NCBI GenBank assembly: GCA_029254005.1
Contig: JAQWYJ010000121.1
Coordinates: 1 to 45,416 of the forward strand
Direction: 5' to 3'
Length of the DNA: 45,416 nt
From: Porticoccaceae bacterium
GTDB taxonomy: Bacteria > Pseudomonadota > Gammaproteobacteria > Pseudomonadales > Porticoccaceae
Under the pieces are notes generated by a model. It was not told the DNA's origin. It made no database searches and worked only from the letters and a program-made list of their open reading frames with translations. The position numbers and the translations under genes are program-made. Shown here piece by piece: positions 31,898-39,487 of this stretch. Numbering within the stretch: the stretch's first letter is position 1; each line of letters begins with the position of its first letter.

Positions 31898-32038
31898 TGA
31901 TCATTGCTACAGCCTAGCGTTGTATTAAATGTTAACAAGATAGAGTCATATCAAAGGTAGTGTACTGAATAAGTTGGCCATTGACTTTGGATGGCGTAAC
32001 ATACTCCCCAGACATGTTTCATGATATCAGGATTTTTT

Positions 32039-32620
32039 ATGTTAAACGTTACTATTACAGAATCGGCCCAAGAGTATCTGGCAGGCCTCTTAGACAAGCA
32101 GAATTGCGAGGGCATTGGTATAAGAATGTTTGTATCAGACCCTGGAACTCCAAAAGCAGAGACATGTATTGCTTACAGTCGACCTGGTGAGCACAATGAG
32201 GAGGACATGATTGTAGAGTATGAAAAATTTAATGCCTACTATGAGCAGCGCAGTATCCCTTTTCTGGATGATGCGAAAGTTGATTTCGCGGAGGATAAAT
32301 TTGGCGGGCAACTGACTATTCGTGCACCAAACTCACGACTGCCTAATATTAATGATGACAGTCCATTGGAAGACAAGGTCAATTACTTGCTCTACAACGA
32401 GATTAATCCTGGTCTTGCTTCTCATGGTGGTGTGGTTTCTCTGGCTGAGTTAGATGATGGATTTGCTGTTTTAGAATTTGGTGGGGGCTGCCAAGGTTGT
32501 TCTGCGGTGGATCTAACCTTGAAAGAGGGCGTTGAAAAGACTCTTATGAGCAAGATTCCTGAGTTAAAAGGGGTAAAAGATGTTACCGATCATTCAGACA
32601 CTACAAATGCTTATATGTGA
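32039..32620 (+). CDS. nfuA: Fe-S biogenesis protein NfuA
   Basis: A 193-residue two-domain protein. The N-terminal degenerate A-type domain ([17 protein letters not shown]) is followed by the C-terminal Nfu domain with the cluster-binding Cys151 and Cys154 in [17 protein letters not shown]. It carries [4Fe-4S] clusters to target proteins, especially under oxidative or iron stress; aconitases are among the known NfuA targets, and acnB lies nearby. ATG 32039 has an AGGA site. An upstream in-frame ATG at 32021 would add six residues and is less likely. Confidence 0.95.
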
Positions 32621-32655: not shown

Positions 32656-34230
32656 CTAAATGTCCTCTGGTCGAACAAAGATGCCCTTTGGAACAAAATC
32701 TCTGAGTAGTGCTTGCAATGTTGTAAGAGCGTTGTCCGCGGTACATAAATCATGTTCGTAGAGACGTTGTAGCGCCTCCCCTATGCTACTCTCTTGATCA
32801 ATACTTTTAAGTCCCTCATATTCTAAATTAGTAAGTTTCTGGCGATACACCTGTAACTTGTCACAGATATATAGGGTATTTCCTGCAAGTTTAGTCATTG
32901 GCGCTAAACGTAGCTTTAGGTCCAGCATATTTGCGGGCTCTATCTGAGCAATCATCGCTAAGGTAACGGTTTTAGTTTGTGGTTGATTGCGTAATTCACT
33001 GATCATTGCCTCGGTCTTAGCCAGTTCTGCATGGGGAGATAATTGGTGCGCTAAAAAATCTGCGAAGCCATGAATATAAGGTTGTAAAGTTGCATATGTA
33101 GAGGGGTTGTGTTCTATATAGGTTCTGATCAAAATGTCGAATTCATTATCGCCTGTCAGCTCTCGTGTTTGAGGATAATCCTCAACAATTGCGTTAAACA
33201 GCCGTTTGCGATATGCATATTGGTAAACATTTAGTTGTTCTGCTGCAGAGAAATTATCTTTGTCCGCTACCCAGTCACCAGGATTTTTATTATCTAAAAC
33301 ACAAGACTGAAAGTTATTCATCAACTCTTTAAAGGATGGTAAGTCGTTGGCACTATCTAGATTGTAGTTAGCCTGTACTACAGGCTTTTCTTGAGAAAAA
33401 TTAACCAGTGGATACTTTTCACTTGAATTTCTTACTCGATCCAGTTCAGACAACATGGTTGAAAAGGCAGGTATATCACTGTCCCATTCAATCATAGTAT
33501 TCTTATAGCCCTTGGTCGCCATAGTGTAGGCATAAAGAGCAAGTACATCGTCATTGATATGGGTGTTATGTGTATCAATAATATGATTACCATGATGTTC
33601 ATGACCGGCCAAATGTACTTGGCCGATGCGGGTGGCTGGTATGGCATCAATGTAGCTCTTTGGATCTAGATTATGATTAAAGCAGGTTACATAAATGTTG
33701 TTAATGTCCAATAGGAGCATGCAGTCTGCTCGGATAAGTAATTGTTTAATGAAATCCCATTCATTAAGGGTATTAGCAGAAAACGCCATATAATTTGACG
33801 GGTTCTCTAGCAGGATTCTTCGACCTAAGTAATTTTGCACCTGGTCCACTTTGTTCACCATATGCGCTAAAGAGGCTTCGGTGTAAGGTACGGGCAATAG
33901 ATCATGGCTGTTAATGTGATTTATACCTGTCCAGCAAATGTGGTCTGAGATCCAAGCAGGTTGTAGCCAGTCTGCTAGTTCTTTAAGGCGCTTTAAGTAG
34001 GCCATATCGATCGGATCATGACTGCCAATGGATAGAGATACGCCATGCATTACAACAGGATATGCGGCTCGAACTTCTTCTAGTACCTGCTGAGGATAGC
34101 CATTGGTGAGCATGAAGTTTTCAGAAATTATCTCAAACCAGTCGATACTACAGGGTTTGTTGTTGAGAACATCATCCCAATGTTGGCTGCGTAACCCCAA
34201 GCCATAGCCAAGGTAAGGAATTGAATTCAT
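32656..34230 (-). CDS. Fused bufferin maturation enzyme BufB-BufC (DUF692/MNIO + DUF2063)
   Basis: One uninterrupted 524-residue protein joins two parts usually encoded separately. Residues about 1-275 are a DUF692 multinuclear non-haem iron oxidase TIM barrel. Metal-ligand candidates are Glu37 (SEN), His62, His97 (SDHICW), Glu142 (LLENPSNY), Asp175/Asn177 (LLLDINNIY), His206 (QVHLAGHEHH), Asp219 and Glu248 (MIEWDSDIP). After a linker, about 300-400 match DUF2063 (LNVYQYAYRKRLFNAIVEDYPQ, GDNEFDILIRTYIEHNPSTY), the peptide-recruiting partner. The pair oxidises cysteines of a precursor peptide into thiooxazoles. The precursor bufA is 127 bases upstream on the same strand. ATG 34230 has AAGGA. 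Confidence 0.9.
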   Translation of the reverse strand: MNSIPYLGYGLGLRSQHWDDVLNNKPCSIDWFEIISENFMLTNGYPQQVLEEVRAAYPVVMHGVSLSIGSHDPIDMAYLKRLKELADWLQPAWISDHICWTGINHINSHDLLPVPYTEASLAHMVNKVDQVQNYLGRRILLENPSNYMAFSANTLNEWDFIKQLLIRADCMLLLDINNIYVTCFNHNLDPKSYIDAIPATRIGQVHLAGHEHHGNHIIDTHNTHINDDVLALYAYTMATKGYKNTMIEWDSDIPAFSTMLSELDRVRNSSEKYPLVNFSQEKPVVQANYNLDSANDLPSFKELMNNFQSCVLDNKNPGDWVADKDNFSAAEQLNVYQYAYRKRLFNAIVEDYPQTRELTGDNEFDILIRTYIEHNPSTYATLQPYIHGFADFLAHQLSPHAELAKTEAMISELRNQPQTKTVTLAMIAQIEPANMLDLKLRLAPMTKLAGNTLYICDKLQVYRQKLTNLEYEGLKSIDQESSIGEALQRLYEHDLCTADNALTTLQALLRDFVPKGIFVRPEDI

Positions 34231-34314
34231 GGGTCATGTCCTTGGTGATTACTAGTTCAGCAAGACACCATAGATTAGTTTATTGGACTAATTTATTTAC
34301 TACAGCGAGGTGAG

Positions 34315-34340
34315 CAGGGGGTCTTGGAACACTCCCCCTG
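34315..34340 (-). promoter_or_regulatory. Stem-loop between bufA and bufBC
   Basis: On the transcribed minus strand CAGGGGG pairs perfectly with CCCCCTG across a 12-base loop, 18 bases after the bufA stop. No T run follows. It is therefore better read as an RNA-stabilising or partial-termination element that lets precursor exceed enzyme. Confidence 0.6.
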
Positions 34341-34357
34341 CAGGTAACAGGGCTCGT

Positions 34358-34636
34358 TTAGCTGGCACTGCCTGACAGTGAACCATTAACAAGTTTACTA
34401 CAGGTGCCTTTAGCTAAATAAATCCACTCCCCATTGTCACCATCGATCTTAGACTGTCCGGCGCAGCTGTGAGTTTTGCTAACATTAGCGCAGTCATTTT
34501 TTCCCGCTTTAGCTACGCCGTAACATTTTTCCATATCTTTTTTCGCTGCAGTAGCTTCAGTGCTAGACAGACTTATAACTCCAACGACCGCAATTAAAGC
34601 TGCTGTTGGAATAATCAGTTTTGTTTTGTTACTCAT
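34358..34636 (-). CDS. bufA: Bufferin precursor BufA (DUF2282, four cysteines)
   Basis: A 92-residue exported peptide. Residues 1-30 form a signal peptide ending EATA. The remaining 60 carry the DUF2282 pattern KCYGVAKAGKNDCA, KTHSCAGQS and LAKGTCSKL with Cys38, Cys49, Cys58 and Cys79. Bufferins of this family are RiPPs whose central cysteines become thiooxazoles and which bind copper in the periplasm. ATG 34636 is chosen over the 34705 start because GGAG lies seven bases upstream and the sigma-type promoter at 34687-34715 would otherwise be inside the gene. The modification and the copper role are established for relatives, inferred here. Confidence 0.9.
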   Translation of the reverse strand: MSNKTKLIIPTAALIAVVGVISLSSTEATAAKKDMEKCYGVAKAGKNDCANVSKTHSCAGQSKIDGDNGEWIYLAKGTCSKLVNGSLSGSAS

Positions 34637-34686
34637 ATTTTTCTCCAGAATGGTAATAGTTAAAATTAAGTACGGTGTTCTGAGGT

Positions 34687-34715
34687 CTATTCGTTTTCTT
34701 TTCAATAAACGTTAC
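34687..34715 (-). promoter_or_regulatory. ECF sigma promoter for bufA
   Basis: On the minus strand GTAACG (34715-34710), exactly 16 bases, then CGAATAG (34693-34687). This matches the GTAAC-N16-CGAA form reported for the Caulobacter SigF regulon. A start about 45 bases upstream of the bufA ATG is predicted. The site lies between nrsF and bufA. Confidence 0.7.
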
Positions 34716-34730
34716 AATTTATCCGGAGCG

Positions 34731-35375
34731 TTACCACTTAAGAAGTTTTTGTCCAAAGATCAGGCCTAATATTGTTAACATGACTATAGGGGAATAACAC
34801 CACACTAGCACATCGGCAAAGTTCTCAGCTTGCCCCACCGTGCGCATTAAAAAGTGACCACAGCTGCTAGCAGATAGTAACGCCAAAGACCCAGCAAATC
34901 TGAGTTGAGTCGGTGACCCTTGACTCATCTGCCACATTAAAAAGCTGGCTGTGGGTATGGCACCTGCAATGACGCCAAATGAAATGTAAGAAAGCGACGG
35001 CGTTGTTAAAGATACTATTAAAGCATCAAGGCTAACGCCGCCAAGTTGCCATATTACAATTCCTAGGACAACAACTAGAAAAGGCAAAAAGACTGCTGGG
35101 GATCTCCCGATGGCCCTTGGGACGGAAAACCTTACGCTGGCAATACCTGCAAAAAATATCAGTATTATAGACAACGCTATTTCAATAGAATAACTCAGCT
35201 GACTTACTTGATAGTGCCAGTCCGATCGAAGGCCTATTGTGGCAATTATAAGACTTAAATAGACTGTTAAAAACAGTATTACTAAGCGACTGCGCGACGC
35301 TATGTTAAATCCAGTAGGCTTTGTGTCTGCTGCATCTTCAACTAAAGAGTTAATGAAGTCATTTCCTTCATTCAT
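34731..35375 (-). CDS. nrsF: NrsF-like anti-sigma factor (DUF1109), six membrane helices
   Basis: A 214-residue integral membrane protein with six predicted helices (about 31-49, 61-81, 93-112, 129-148, 157-177, 189-208) and a short cytoplasmic N-terminus. This is the topology of DUF1109/NrsF proteins that hold SigF-type ECF factors at the membrane. Cys172 (SSCGHFLM) and Cys193 (VWCYSP) are candidates for metal or redox sensing. Its ATG overlaps the end of the sigma gene by eight bases, so the pair is translationally coupled. The family match rests on topology, context and general pattern rather than strong motifs. Confidence 0.8.
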   Translation of the reverse strand: MNEGNDFINSLVEDAADTKPTGFNIASRSRLVILFLTVYLSLIIATIGLRSDWHYQVSQLSYSIEIALSIILIFFAGIASVRFSVPRAIGRSPAVFLPFLVVVLGIVIWQLGGVSLDALIVSLTTPSLSYISFGVIAGAIPTASFLMWQMSQGSPTQLRFAGSLALLSASSCGHFLMRTVGQAENFADVLVWCYSPIVMLTILGLIFGQKLLKW

Positions 35376-35949
35376 ATGGTATATTCACCTTTGATCTTAT
35401 GCGCTTGATAGCACGGTGGGCTGTGGTACGAACATTAGATACCGATATATTTAACAAAGCCGATACTTCCTCAGCCGAATTCCCATTTACGTAGAGCATT
35501 TCAATAATTCTTCGTTGCTGAGGCACCAAGTATGACAATAATTTTTGACTAAAATTTCGATATTCCCATTCTAACTGAGGGTCTGTAGCTAAACCTCTCT
35601 CATCAGAATTACTTATATCTTGGGTAATATTCCTTCGCGCACGGTAATAAGCTCGCAGGTAGTCTTGAAATCTGTAGTTAAAAATAGCATAAAGCCAAGG
35701 AAAAATCGGTTTTTCAAGGTCGAAAGTATGTCTTGCGTTATGTACCGAGATAAGTATTTCTTGAGTGAGGTCCTCTAGGTCGCTTGGGTTTTGCAGTCTT
35801 TTAGAGAGATATCCTCGTGCCATAGACTCAACCGAGATGAGTAGTTTTTGATAATGCGATTGATCACCACTCTGAGCAAAAACCATCGATTGATGGGCTT
35901 CAGCTTCGCTAAGCAAAATTGCTTTGTCGTTAATCTTCGAGAGACTCAA
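35368..35949 (-). CDS. sigF: ECF RNA polymerase sigma factor, SigF type
   Basis: Up to 193 residues. Region sigma-2 is about 35-105 (NPSDLEDLTQEILISVHNAR, IFPWLYAIFNYRFQDYLRAY). Region sigma-4 is about 137-188 (LVPQQRRIIEMLYVNGNSAE, LLNISVSNVRTTAHRAIKRI). The first in-frame start is a TTG at 35949 without a good ribosome site. An ATG at residue 22 (35886) also fits the family and may be the true start. The downstream overlapping gene is its membrane anti-sigma factor, and both flanking transcripts carry matching promoter motifs. It probably switches on the bufferin genes when copper or oxidative stress releases it. Confidence 0.88.
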   Translation of the reverse strand: MSLSKINDKAILLSEAEAHQSMVFAQSGDQSHYQKLLISVESMARGYLSKRLQNPSDLEDLTQEILISVHNARHTFDLEKPIFPWLYAIFNYRFQDYLRAYYRARRNITQDISNSDERGLATDPQLEWEYRNFSQKLLSYLVPQQRRIIEMLYVNGNSAEEVSALLNISVSNVRTTAHRAIKRIRSKVNIPYE

Positions 35950-36006
35950 ATCTAGTCGCTTATCAGTAGGTTAAATACTAAAAGTGTAATCTAAAAAGAG
36001 AGTTTT

Positions 36007-36035
36007 GTAATGCTTTTGATAAAAGGTGCGAAATA
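36007..36035 (+). promoter_or_regulatory. ECF sigma promoter for doxX
   Basis: GTAATG (36007-36012), exactly 16 bases, then CGAAATA (36029-36035). It differs from the bufA promoter by one base in the -35 hexamer and keeps the same spacing and CGAA core. A start near 36040 would give a leader of about 28 bases before the TTG start of doxX. Confidence 0.6.
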
Positions 36036-36068
36036 CGTTACTCACTAGCATCATTAAAGGGATTAACA

Positions 36069-36500
36069 TTGAATCAGATTTTTAAGATATACATTCAGAT
36101 TAATGAATTACTCAGACAATTTACTAACGTAGTTGCACTGCTCATTAGATTTTGGATGGCCAAGATATTTCTATTAGCCGGGCTGACTAAAATTGATAAT
36201 TGGGACAGCACACTTATGTTATTTGAGTATGAATATACAGTTCCATTTATATCCGTAGCCATGGCTGCGTTCTTAGCGACGTTCTTCGAATTGGTTATGC
36301 CGATTTTACTTTTTGTCGGGCTATTTACAAGACTAGCAGCTATTCCTTTGCTAGTGATGACCGCCGTGATTGAGTTTACTTATGGTTCTTTTCCTGAACA
36401 TGCCTACTGGGCACTGCTTTTGGGTCTTTTAGTGACCTACGGCGCTGGGCGATATTCTGCAGACCATTACTTTGTAGATCCTTGGTTATCTCGGTCCTAG
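36069..36500 (+). CDS. DoxX-family membrane protein of the bufferin locus
   Basis: A 143-residue protein with four predicted membrane helices and DoxX features: LIRFWMAKIFLLAGLTKIDN at about 25-45, ATFFELVMPILLFVGLFTRL in the middle, and GRYSADHYF at the end. DoxX proteins are common partners of DUF692/DUF2063/DUF2282 genes; their role is thought to be in membrane redox chemistry. TTG 36069 has AAAGG seven bases upstream. Here it is divergent from the sigma/anti-sigma genes but has its own sigma-type promoter. Confidence 0.86.
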   Translation: MNQIFKIYIQINELLRQFTNVVALLIRFWMAKIFLLAGLTKIDNWDSTLMLFEYEYTVPFISVAMAAFLATFFELVMPILLFVGLFTRLAAIPLLVMTAVIEFTYGSFPEHAYWALLLGLLVTYGAGRYSADHYFVDPWLSRS

Positions 36501-36572: not shown

Positions 36573-39182
36573 TTAGGCTACGTCGACGATTTGTTCAGCA
36601 GCAATTAATTTACCTCGTTCGGCTGACTTTTGAAATGAGGCTATCTGATCAAAATTCATATACTTATATATCTCAGATGACATGGCGTCTATTTTTTCGG
36701 CATAAATCATATATTCTTCAACCGTCGGTAATCGACCTAAAATACCACCCACAGATGCTAGCTCAGCACTGGCCAAATAGACATTTGCACCGTCACCTAG
36801 TCGGTTGGGAAAGTTTCGTGTTGAGGTAGATAGAACAGTAGCACCGGCCAGTACTCGCGCTTGGTTTCCCATACACAGAGAACATCCGGGCATCTCAGTG
36901 CGCGCACCCACTTTACCATAAATATTATAGTAACCTTCTTCCATAAGTGTGTGTGCATCCATTCTTGTTGGAGGACAAATCCAAAATCGAGAGTCAACGC
37001 TACCTGCATCATCCAACAGTTTACCCGCTGCTCTAAAGTGGCCTATATTGGTCATGCAGGAGCCAATAAAAATCTCGTCAACGTTATTGCCAGAAACCTC
37101 AGAGAGCAATTTTGCATCATCAGGATCGTTAGGGCAGCACACTATTGGCTCAACAATATCGGCAAGATCAATTTCGATCACAGCGGCATATTCAGCGTCA
37201 ACATCAGCTTCCATAAGATGCGGATTGGCGACCCATTCTTCCATCTTGCGCACGCGTCGTTCAAGTGTTCTGACATCACCATATCCCTCAGCAATCATCC
37301 AACGCAGCAAGGTCATGTTGGAGTTAAGATACTCAGTAACTGACGCTTCACTAAGTTTTATTGTACAACCTGCCGCTGAACGTTCTGCCGAGGCATCTGA
37401 TAACTCAAAAGCTTGTTCAACGGTGAGTTCGTCAATACCCTCAATCTCAAGAATTCGTCCCGAGAAAAAATTCTTCTTACCTTTCTTTTCAACTGTAAGC
37501 AATCCTTCTTTAATACCATAGTAAGGAATTGCATGGACCAAATCTCGTAGTGTTATACCAGGCTGCATTTTGCCTTTAAATCGGACTAATACTGACTCTG
37601 GCATGTCTAAAGGCATAACTCCGGTAGCAGCGGCAAAGGCTACAAGACCTGAACCACCTGGGAACGAAATTCCCATAGGAAAGCGAGTGTGCGAGTCTCC
37701 GCCAGTGCCCACGGTATCAGGCAGGAGCATACGATTTAACCAGCTATGAATAATGCCATCACCGGGGCGAAGAGAGACTCCGCCACGGTTCATAATGAAG
37801 TCCGGCAAAGAGTGTTGGGTATCTATATCTACAGGCTTTGGATAGGCCGCAGTGTGACAGAAAGACTGCATTACCAAATCTGTTGAGAATCCAAGACAGG
37901 CAAGATCTTTGAGTTCATCGCGTGTCATGGGTCCAGTGGTATCCTGAGAACCCACGGTAGTCATTTTTGGTTCGCAGTATGTGCCAGGTCGAATTCCCAC
38001 TGTACCACAGGCTTTGCCAACCATCTTTTGAGCCAACGTGTAACCAGCATCAGATTTGATAGGTATCGTCGGATGACGGAATGCATCGGAAGGAGGTAGG
38101 CCCATATGTTCTCTGGCGCGCTGTGTTAACCCACGACCGATTATGAGATTGATACGCCCGTCAGCTTGAACCTCATCTAAAATGACTTCTGACTTATGTT
38201 CAAATTCACAAATCAACTTTCCTGATTCGTCAAGAATTTTCCCCTCATAGGGAAGTATTTCAATGATGTCACCATTATTAATGTCATCTACTGGGGCTTC
38301 AAATACTAGTGCACCAGCGTCTTCCATTGTGTTAAAGAATATTGGTGCGACTTTACTACCAAAACAAATGCCGCCAGAACGTTTGTTAGGGACACCGGGC
38401 ATATCCTCACCGAAAAACCAAAGCACAGAGTTAGTCGCTGATTTTCGTGATGAGCCAGTACCAACAACATCGCCGATAAAGGCTACTGGTAAACCTCGCG
38501 CCTTTAATTCATCAATTTGTGACATTGGACCTGTAACACCATGTTCTTCTGGATGCATACCATCGCGTGTCATTTTAAACATTGCGCGGGCATGCAATGG
38601 AATGTCTGGGCGTGACCAAGCATCCTGAGCTGGGCTCAGGTCATCAGTATTTATTTCACCCGTGGCTTTAAAGACAATTACTTTGGTACTCTGAGGCACA
38701 GGATCGCTGGAGGTAAACCATTCTGCATCAGCCCAAGATTGCATGACCGCCTTCGCTGGGATGTTGCCCGCGTCGGCCTTTTCAGCTACATCGTGAAAGG
38801 CATCAAATACCAGCAGCGTAGTTTTTAGGACCTCGGCAGCTTGCGCAGCAAGCTCATTGTCGTCAAGCAGCGATACTAGTGTTGCTACGTTATAGCCGCC
38901 GTGCATATTTCCTAATAGGGTTACCGCGGCGGACCGATTGATTAGCGGAGATGAAATTTCTTGGTTGACAATAGCGCTTAAAAATCCAGCCTTTACATAA
39001 GCTGCTTCATCAACTCCAGGTGGCACACGGTTTGCAATAAGATCCAGTAGAAAAGCTTCCTCACCTGCAGGAGGATTCTTTAGTAACTCAACGAGTCCTG
39101 CTGTCCACTCTGCATCCAAGGCCTTGGGTGGTATGTTTAGTAGTTGACGCTCAGCAACATGAGCGCGATAGGCTTCTAGCAC
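36573..39182 (-). CDS. acnB: Aconitate hydratase B
   Basis: A TCA-cycle enzyme interconverting citrate and isocitrate (also 2-methylisocitrate), with a [4Fe-4S] cluster. GTG 39182 is chosen: AAAGGAG lies nine bases upstream and the protein then opens with LEAYRAHVAERQLLNIPPKA as in other AcnB. It has 869 residues. The N-terminal HEAT-like domain and swivelling domain 4 come first, as is specific to AcnB. The cluster cysteines are Cys709 (GSCMTN), Cys767 and Cys770 (PGCSLCMGNQARV). It stands alone, converging with doxX. Confidence 0.96.
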   Translation of the reverse strand: MLEAYRAHVAERQLLNIPPKALDAEWTAGLVELLKNPPAGEEAFLLDLIANRVPPGVDEAAYVKAGFLSAIVNQEISSPLINRSAAVTLLGNMHGGYNVATLVSLLDDNELAAQAAEVLKTTLLVFDAFHDVAEKADAGNIPAKAVMQSWADAEWFTSSDPVPQSTKVIVFKATGEINTDDLSPAQDAWSRPDIPLHARAMFKMTRDGMHPEEHGVTGPMSQIDELKARGLPVAFIGDVVGTGSSRKSATNSVLWFFGEDMPGVPNKRSGGICFGSKVAPIFFNTMEDAGALVFEAPVDDINNGDIIEILPYEGKILDESGKLICEFEHKSEVILDEVQADGRINLIIGRGLTQRAREHMGLPPSDAFRHPTIPIKSDAGYTLAQKMVGKACGTVGIRPGTYCEPKMTTVGSQDTTGPMTRDELKDLACLGFSTDLVMQSFCHTAAYPKPVDIDTQHSLPDFIMNRGGVSLRPGDGIIHSWLNRMLLPDTVGTGGDSHTRFPMGISFPGGSGLVAFAAATGVMPLDMPESVLVRFKGKMQPGITLRDLVHAIPYYGIKEGLLTVEKKGKKNFFSGRILEIEGIDELTVEQAFELSDASAERSAAGCTIKLSEASVTEYLNSNMTLLRWMIAEGYGDVRTLERRVRKMEEWVANPHLMEADVDAEYAAVIEIDLADIVEPIVCCPNDPDDAKLLSEVSGNNVDEIFIGSCMTNIGHFRAAGKLLDDAGSVDSRFWICPPTRMDAHTLMEEGYYNIYGKVGARTEMPGCSLCMGNQARVLAGATVLSTSTRNFPNRLGDGANVYLASAELASVGGILGRLPTVEEYMIYAEKIDAMSSEIYKYMNFDQIASFQKSAERGKLIAAEQIVDVA

Positions 39183-39487
39183 GGTATGCTTCTCCTTTGA
39201 ACTTATTATTAACGTGGTTTTTGGCGTTGGACTGCCATTATTTTTGGCGATATTATACGGCAACTTGTAATTTTTTTACAGGTTTATGCGGTATACCCAG
39301 TATAAGCAAAACTAAATAATAAAATGTAGCTTGGTGGACTATTGCTATGTGTTTATCAAACTGTCTCTCTGATAAACTGTAAGACTGAGAAGTTGAGTGT
39401 CAAACGTCGCAACAATGTAGTTGAAATCGCTCTTTTGCATCAATCACGTTTTGGATGCTACAAGCTTAAACGGATAAAAAATAACCA

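Follow-up and report, generated by a model that had tools for sequence, protein, structure and literature searches.

The cysteines of bufferins are converted to 5-thiooxazoles by an MNIO enzyme together with a DUF2063-RRE partner (PMC12452194, PMC13097082); in Buf1, the modified residues are the two central cysteines, and the outer pair forms a disulphide (PMC12452194). In Caulobacter, the CC3252-CC3257 part of the sigma-F regulon encodes six functions: NrsF, sigma-F, a DUF2282 protein, a DUF692 protein, a DUF2063 protein and DoxX (PMC3511200). The same six functions occur in five genes at positions 32,656 to 36,500 of contig JAQWYJ010000121.1 from a Porticoccaceae bacterium, a stretch of 45,416 nucleotides that is called the window when its full length is meant. 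Here the DUF2282 precursor gene, bufA, is followed by a single gene, bufBC, in which the MNIO enzyme BufB (DUF692) and its partner BufC (DUF2063) are one protein. We take CC3254 of Caulobacter to be the bufferin-1 precursor. The precursors are close in size, with 93 residues for the Caulobacter DUF2282 protein and 92 for BufA of the window, whereas the separate Caulobacter DUF692 and DUF2063 proteins (280 and 254 residues) correspond to one protein of 524 residues, and doxX, the last gene of the Caulobacter operon, is divergent in the window (PMC3511200).

The gene set is that of Buf1 clusters (PMC12452194), with genes for an extracytoplasmic function (ECF) sigma factor, NrsF and DoxX all near bufA-bufBC and the DUF2063 partner present as a domain inside the fused protein. 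The locus is a complete Buf1-type bufferin locus, comprising DUF2282 precursor, NrsF, ECF sigma factor, DoxX, and BufB and BufC in one chain. An earlier note on this DNA, made from its letters alone, had called the locus complete; its gene set stands, but doxX is not co-directional with the rest, lying on the plus strand. We put at about 80% the probability that the locus functions as a Buf1 bufferin system in which naturally fused BufB and BufC act as one single-chain maturase. Gene content, the fusion, its conservation, selection on both halves and the predicted folds are results obtained here; the chemistry, the metal, the regulation and any benefit of fusion would follow those of studied relatives.

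Single-chain arrangements of this kind have been described in other settings. Because HvfB and HvfC bind weakly, a synthetic HvfB-HvfC fusion was built in the laboratory (PMC13419390, a July 2026 preprint). Like the window's protein, it has the MNIO enzyme first and the DUF2063-RRE partner second, in one chain and at 1:1; unlike it, it is man-made, linker-free and directed at an oxazolin substrate, whereas the window's protein is natural, with a linker of about 35 residues, a Buf1 substrate and a shorter RRE (PMC13419390). The nearest natural case is MovX, an MNIO enzyme that carries a winged helix or RRE domain of its own at the C-terminus and produces a C-terminal amide; DUF2063 goes unmentioned in the accessible text of its descriptions, and the comparison with the window is by description only (PMC13419390, PMC12452194). 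No description of a natural BufB-BufC or HvfB-HvfC fusion was found in the literature searched, which did not extend to most subscription papers.

The fused maturase and its precursor

The bufBC gene (32656..34230, minus strand; ATG at 34230, stop at 32656-32658) is one open frame of 524 codons without an internal stop. Residues 9-268 match PF05114 (MbnB_TglH_ChrH) at 345 bits (cut-off 25, E 3.1e-103), and residues 305-393 match PF09836 (DUF2063) at 54.3 bits (cut-off 27.2, E 1.7e-14), so that the joining of BufB and BufC in one protein, proposed earlier, is borne out by a stop-free frame with both domains above curated cut-offs. Among the six NCBIfam models that matched, MNIO_BufB was the sole one to pass (355 bits, cut-off 310), and the HvfB, ApyH, MbnB, ChrH and HvfC models all scored under their cut-offs on the fused protein. 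The scores separate it from the oxazolin system HvfABC (HvfB 246 bits, cut-off 360; HvfC 22 bits, cut-off 142) and from the methanobactin system MbnABC (MbnB 60.8 bits, cut-off 325). In the MNIO domain (33427..34206, minus strand), H62, H97, E142, D175, N177, H206, D219, H221 and E248 are identical in 28 of 28 aligned rows, five fused and 23 stand-alone. These nine residues are presumably the metal ligands.

Between the domains, alignment and structure model place a linker at residues 269-300 (33331..33426, minus strand), variable in sequence and modelled with low confidence at 276-281. The helical DUF2063 domain (33052..33318, minus strand) follows, and after it a compact predicted RRE fold at residues 446-512 (32695..32895, minus strand), with the full order strand-strand-strand-helix-helix-helix. 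The full-chain model has a predicted local distance difference test score (pLDDT) of 88.4 and a predicted template modelling score (pTM) of 0.81, and a model of the C-terminal half reached 92.5 and 0.80; the predicted folds resemble an MNIO enzyme in the N-terminal half and a partner/RRE in the other. A profile search of PDB sequences with mixed alignment A2 returned 3bww and 3dee as its sole matches. The order DUF2063 domain then RRE fold, seen with Pfam and in the models, is that of PME-type 1 partners. Those partners (NGO1945, PDB 3dee) are stand-alone proteins, whereas here the partner is the C-terminal half of a larger one. It spans 229 of the 524 residues, against 250-260 in stand-alone partner proteins (PMC12452194), so that the compactness attributed earlier to this variant extends to its partner half. 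By analogy with studied relatives and from the predicted folds, the fused protein is most likely a single-chain thiooxazole synthase.

Its putative substrate is encoded by bufA (34358..34636, minus strand), which matches PF10048 (DUF2282) at 88 bits, above cut-off, and carries cysteines at 38, 49, 58 and 79 of its 92 residues. The ATG at 34636 is the likely start, favoured over a TTG at 34705. By eye, the N-terminus has a charged start, a hydrophobic stretch and an ATA-A site, a candidate signal peptide, and EGKCG-type repeats of the oxazolin precursor are absent from the BufA sequence. As for a mass signature, the expectation of -4 Da per cysteine pair needs correction, since the published shift is -4 Da for each modified cysteine (PMC13097082).

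The source genome (94.5% complete, 147 contigs) holds a single DUF2282 match, one PF05114 match and, among the matches listed, one PF09836 match; a second MNIO, DUF2063 or DUF2282 gene was not found in this 94.5% complete genome, for DUF2063 among the matches listed. With no free BufB or BufC seen, the fused protein would therefore have to mature BufA alone.

Conservation and distribution of the fusion

A second copy of bufBC lies in the Porticoccaceae metagenome-assembled genome (MAG) UBA9550 (contig DNBN01000184.1), which was assembled independently, belongs to the same genus and is labelled G678 here (G and L numbers denote compared genomes and loci). It too encodes 524 residues, 89% identical over residues 1-522 with zero indels. 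The genes are of equal length and 89.8% identical in nucleotides, with 38, 19 and 104 differences at codon positions 1, 2 and 3, and the ratio of non-synonymous to synonymous rates (dN/dS) is 0.150 overall, 0.080 in the MNIO domain, 0.122 in the DUF2063 domain and 0.388 in the C-terminal part. Judged by these substitution patterns, the fused gene is under purifying selection; the low ratios in both halves argue that both are kept, the last part less strictly.

Intact fusions, defined as both domains in one open frame, were sought by profile search of every locus collected. The counts are lower bounds, the samples overlapping, only listed matches being counted and only some long frames fetched. 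At least 12 genomes in samples of Pseudomonadota carry one: the window's, G678, G734, G737 (whose locus contains some unknown letters), G738, G382, G1227, G1415, G1149, G1433, G1428 and G1011. In the window's family, five of 112 genomes have an intact fusion, and relatives of the fused protein occur in 67. An order sample of 293 genomes (197 with a match) gave the window's genome as the sole intact fusion among the matches listed, in agreement with the earlier claim that these are normally two genes. The class sample (369 genomes, 108 matching the C-terminal half) contributed at least one, G382, which in its own family of 36 genomes is again the sole fusion among the matches listed; the phylum sample (398 genomes, 145 with a match) gave at least two, the window's genome and G1011, the latter through a check of long frames. 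At least three fusions occur in the class of G1066, probably Alphaproteobacteria (317 genomes, 122 with a match), three in the 33 genomes of the order of G1415, two of them new, and one in the four genomes of the order of G1149, the same genome again. No relatives turned up in a viral sequence collection. The wider search recommended in the earlier note thus upheld the rarity of the fusion but not its uniqueness.

Long open frames proved mostly misleading as markers, with a true fusion behind one of nine in the class sample and one of 29 further loci chosen for long frames (G1011). A 555-residue frame in G096 was rejected as two genes end to end. In that locus (L062:2522-4180) the bufC ATG directly follows the bufB stop in the same frame, one stop codon short of fusion; in G430 and G1007, bufB and bufC also share one frame with a single stop between them.

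The precursors beside the fusions are varied. They are of DUF2282 type in the window, G734, G737, G738 and G1011 (all but the window's by motif or eye), and G382 has a six-cysteine Buf2-like precursor, recognised in the same way. The G1011 frame (L213:1508-3391) begins directly after a precursor that looks DUF2282-like by eye, and its linker of some 80 residues consists largely of Ala, Gly, Ser and Thr. At the fused loci of another class, L189, L190, L199 and L200 (G1415, G1149, G1433 and G1428), cysteine-rich precursor-like open reading frames (ORFs) have signal-peptide-like starts and are unlike BufA, and L189 and L199 also have a DUF2282-like ORF nearby (by eye). Since several precursor-like ORFs accompany these loci, one fused enzyme may serve multiple substrates.

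An orthologous, decayed locus is present in a sister genus (G751 and G752; loci L166/L167, records PCCK01000017.1 and CAJWCO010000051.1), with an in-frame stop in each of the sigma factor gene, nrsF and the fused gene; doxX appears intact. Over 5,958 bases the two contigs share 99.7% identity, and they were therefore counted as one decayed locus and one broken fusion. Recoding of stop codons was rejected, as the in-frame stops, seen on G752, are of three kinds (TGA, TAG and TAA).

Origins and possible role of the fusion

Trees of the MNIO domain were used to follow the fused state, label changes being gains or losses. With 142 MNIO domains in the tree, the fused label, borne by seven rows including the broken copy, changes three times. 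Smaller trees of 63, 60, 59 and 70 rows were obtained by dropping five long-branch rows (L118, L020, L062, L102, L119) and thinning split rows. The 70-row tree (13 fused, 57 split) has five label changes, of which starred branches force four, and a single change was seen in 0 of 200 bootstrap trees; bootstraps had not settled in the 63-, 60- and 70-row trees, and the G1011 branch is long (1.07 in the 70-row tree). By the approximately unbiased (AU) test, one clade of the seven first-known fused rows is rejected (p 0.00085, 63-row tree), as is one clade of ten fused rows (p about 1e-51). Within the 63-row tree, joining the window clade to G734/G737/G738 is not rejected (p 0.128), and joining it to G382 is weakly rejected (p 0.031). 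In the BufB tree the window clade groups with genomes of another class, and its union with the fused rows of that class is compatible with the data (p 0.5, and 0.319 with more rows in the 59-row tree), so that these may share one origin. On these phylogenies, a single origin of all fusions is rejected and about five label changes are needed. In the trees of both halves, the C-half tree being used for grouping alone and its label count disregarded, an identical group of eight rows contains the window clade (100/96 for the N half with 60 rows, 99/96 for the C half), which suggests that cognate halves were joined.

In a bufferin locus with a single-chain enzyme, envelope or metal stress would free the ECF sigma factor from NrsF, and the freed factor would transcribe bufA-bufBC and, separately, doxX. 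The C-terminal RRE, with the DUF2063 domain, would bind the signal-peptide region of BufA in the cytoplasm; for partners in general, masking of the signal peptide until modification is complete has been suggested (PMC12452194). The tethered partner would keep the iron site of the MNIO domain active and mixed-valent, in a Fe(II)/Fe(III) state that in the Hvf system formed with HvfC only (PMC13419390). The MNIO barrel would then oxidise the two central cysteines of BufA to 5-thiooxazoles, Sec would export the modified peptide, and the product would bind excess copper in the periplasm. Fusion would make a weak protein-protein encounter ahead of Sec export unnecessary and would fix enzyme and partner at 1:1, a ratio already proposed in the earlier note, which follows from the one-chain anatomy and is backed by the synthetic HvfB-HvfC fusion (PMC13419390). 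HvfB-HvfC binding is weak, and the man-made linker-free fusion was more active than the co-expressed pair (PMC13419390). Tentatively, and somewhat short of an even chance, MNIO-partner fusion may have arisen repeatedly in nature, about five times in different bacterial lineages, as an answer to weak enzyme-partner binding and to a race between modification and Sec export. If so, single-chain synthases would hold their iron site permanently partner-activated, and a reduced recognition domain like that of the Porticoccaceae protein could suffice for them.

Fusion might instead be neutral, the loss of a stop codon between two genes that are invariably co-expressed having left activity no higher than before. 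This carries appreciable weight, if well under half: bufB and bufC are usually adjacent and the fusion is rare and scattered, but the trees call for about five label changes, purifying selection acts on the single fused pair that was compared (window and G678), and the synthetic HvfBC fusion had clearly higher activity (PMC13419390). With respect to the product, it is unlikely, though conceivable, that what it guards against is not copper but some other challenge, such as other soft metals or sulphur or oxidative stress; Caulobacter sigma-F genes respond to chromium and cadmium (PMC3511200) and a DoxX relative is tied to oxidative or sulphur stress (PMC12452194), yet bufferins and other thiooxazole peptides bind copper (PMC12452194, PMC13097082). 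It is quite improbable that the fused enzyme is decaying, its partner half losing function and BufA being exported unmodified. The RRE is short, dN/dS rises to 0.39 in the C-terminus and the locus is broken in G751/G752; against this, dN/dS is 0.15 overall without indels relative to G678, the candidate ligand columns are the same in all 28 rows, and the strand-helix order of the RRE is complete in the model. Merging of bufB and bufC by sequencing or assembly error, which the earlier note named as the finding that would overturn it, has a negligible probability: the source assembly is in 147 contigs, G678 is itself a MAG, and one base error could join the genes where a single stop separates them (G430, G1007, G096), but an artefact is excluded because the same fusion, free of indels, recurs in G678, which was assembled separately and differs at 161 nucleotides (89.8% identity), 104 of them at third codon positions; intact fusions also occur in ten more genomes.

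Most MNIO enzymes need a partner (PMC13419390), and natural fusions would be ready-made single-chain enzymes, one of them with a shortened recognition domain; they make testable with one gene the role of the partner beyond peptide binding, the minimal size of the recognition part, and how a signal-peptide precursor is modified before Sec export.

Regulatory and neighbouring features

All five genes named by the earlier note were recovered, at the positions given there, with Pfam and ORF inspection. Upstream of bufA on the minus strand, nrsF (34731..35375; 214 residues) encodes an anti-sigma membrane protein matching PF06532 (83 bits, E 2.9e-23), which gives an identity to what had been described as a six-helix membrane protein. 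It is overlapped by the ECF sigma factor gene (35368..35949, minus strand; 193 residues, TTG start as listed; PF08281 and PF04542). Divergent from sigma-nrsF-bufA-bufBC, doxX (36069..36500, plus strand; 143 residues, TTG start as listed; PF07681, E 6.4e-14) therefore forms a transcription unit of its own. Pfam thus supports the earlier naming of ECF sigma factor, four-cysteine DUF2282 peptide (PF10048) and DoxX.

In Caulobacter, sigma-F binds GTAACC-N16-CGAA (PMC3511200). A candidate promoter of this type, GTAACG-N16-CGAA with one mismatch (34690..34715, minus strand), lies 53 bases upstream of the bufA start, and only two other sites in the window match this well or better; a further candidate, GTAATG-N16-CGAA with two mismatches (36007..36032, plus strand), precedes doxX. 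Similar sites occur at both places in L167, and looser ones before bufA and doxX in L166/L167. With at most two mismatches, 32 sites were observed in the window against 29.5 expected, so the motif carries little weight by itself; no such site precedes the sigma gene in the window scan. Between bufA and bufBC, an 8-bp hairpin (34314..34341, minus strand) is a candidate attenuator through which precursor could be produced in excess of enzyme; the fold z-score of the spacer is just -1.6, and L167 has a longer, unrelated 16-bp hairpin at the same place. The two cysteines that matter in Caulobacter NrsF are 131 and 181 (PMC3511200). In the window's NrsF, cysteines lie at 172 and 193, in an unreliable alignment of two homologues from which nothing firm is claimed; from sequence, its sensing part may differ from that of Caulobacter.

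Base composition gave no sign of horizontal transfer, the guanine-cytosine fraction of the cassette being 0.408 against 0.425 (sd 0.013). The cassette is flanked, perhaps by chance, by genes for an NfuA-like iron-sulphur protein (32021-32620) and an aconitase (36573-39263), both named by eye; iron-sulphur proteins such as these are of the kind damaged by excess copper.

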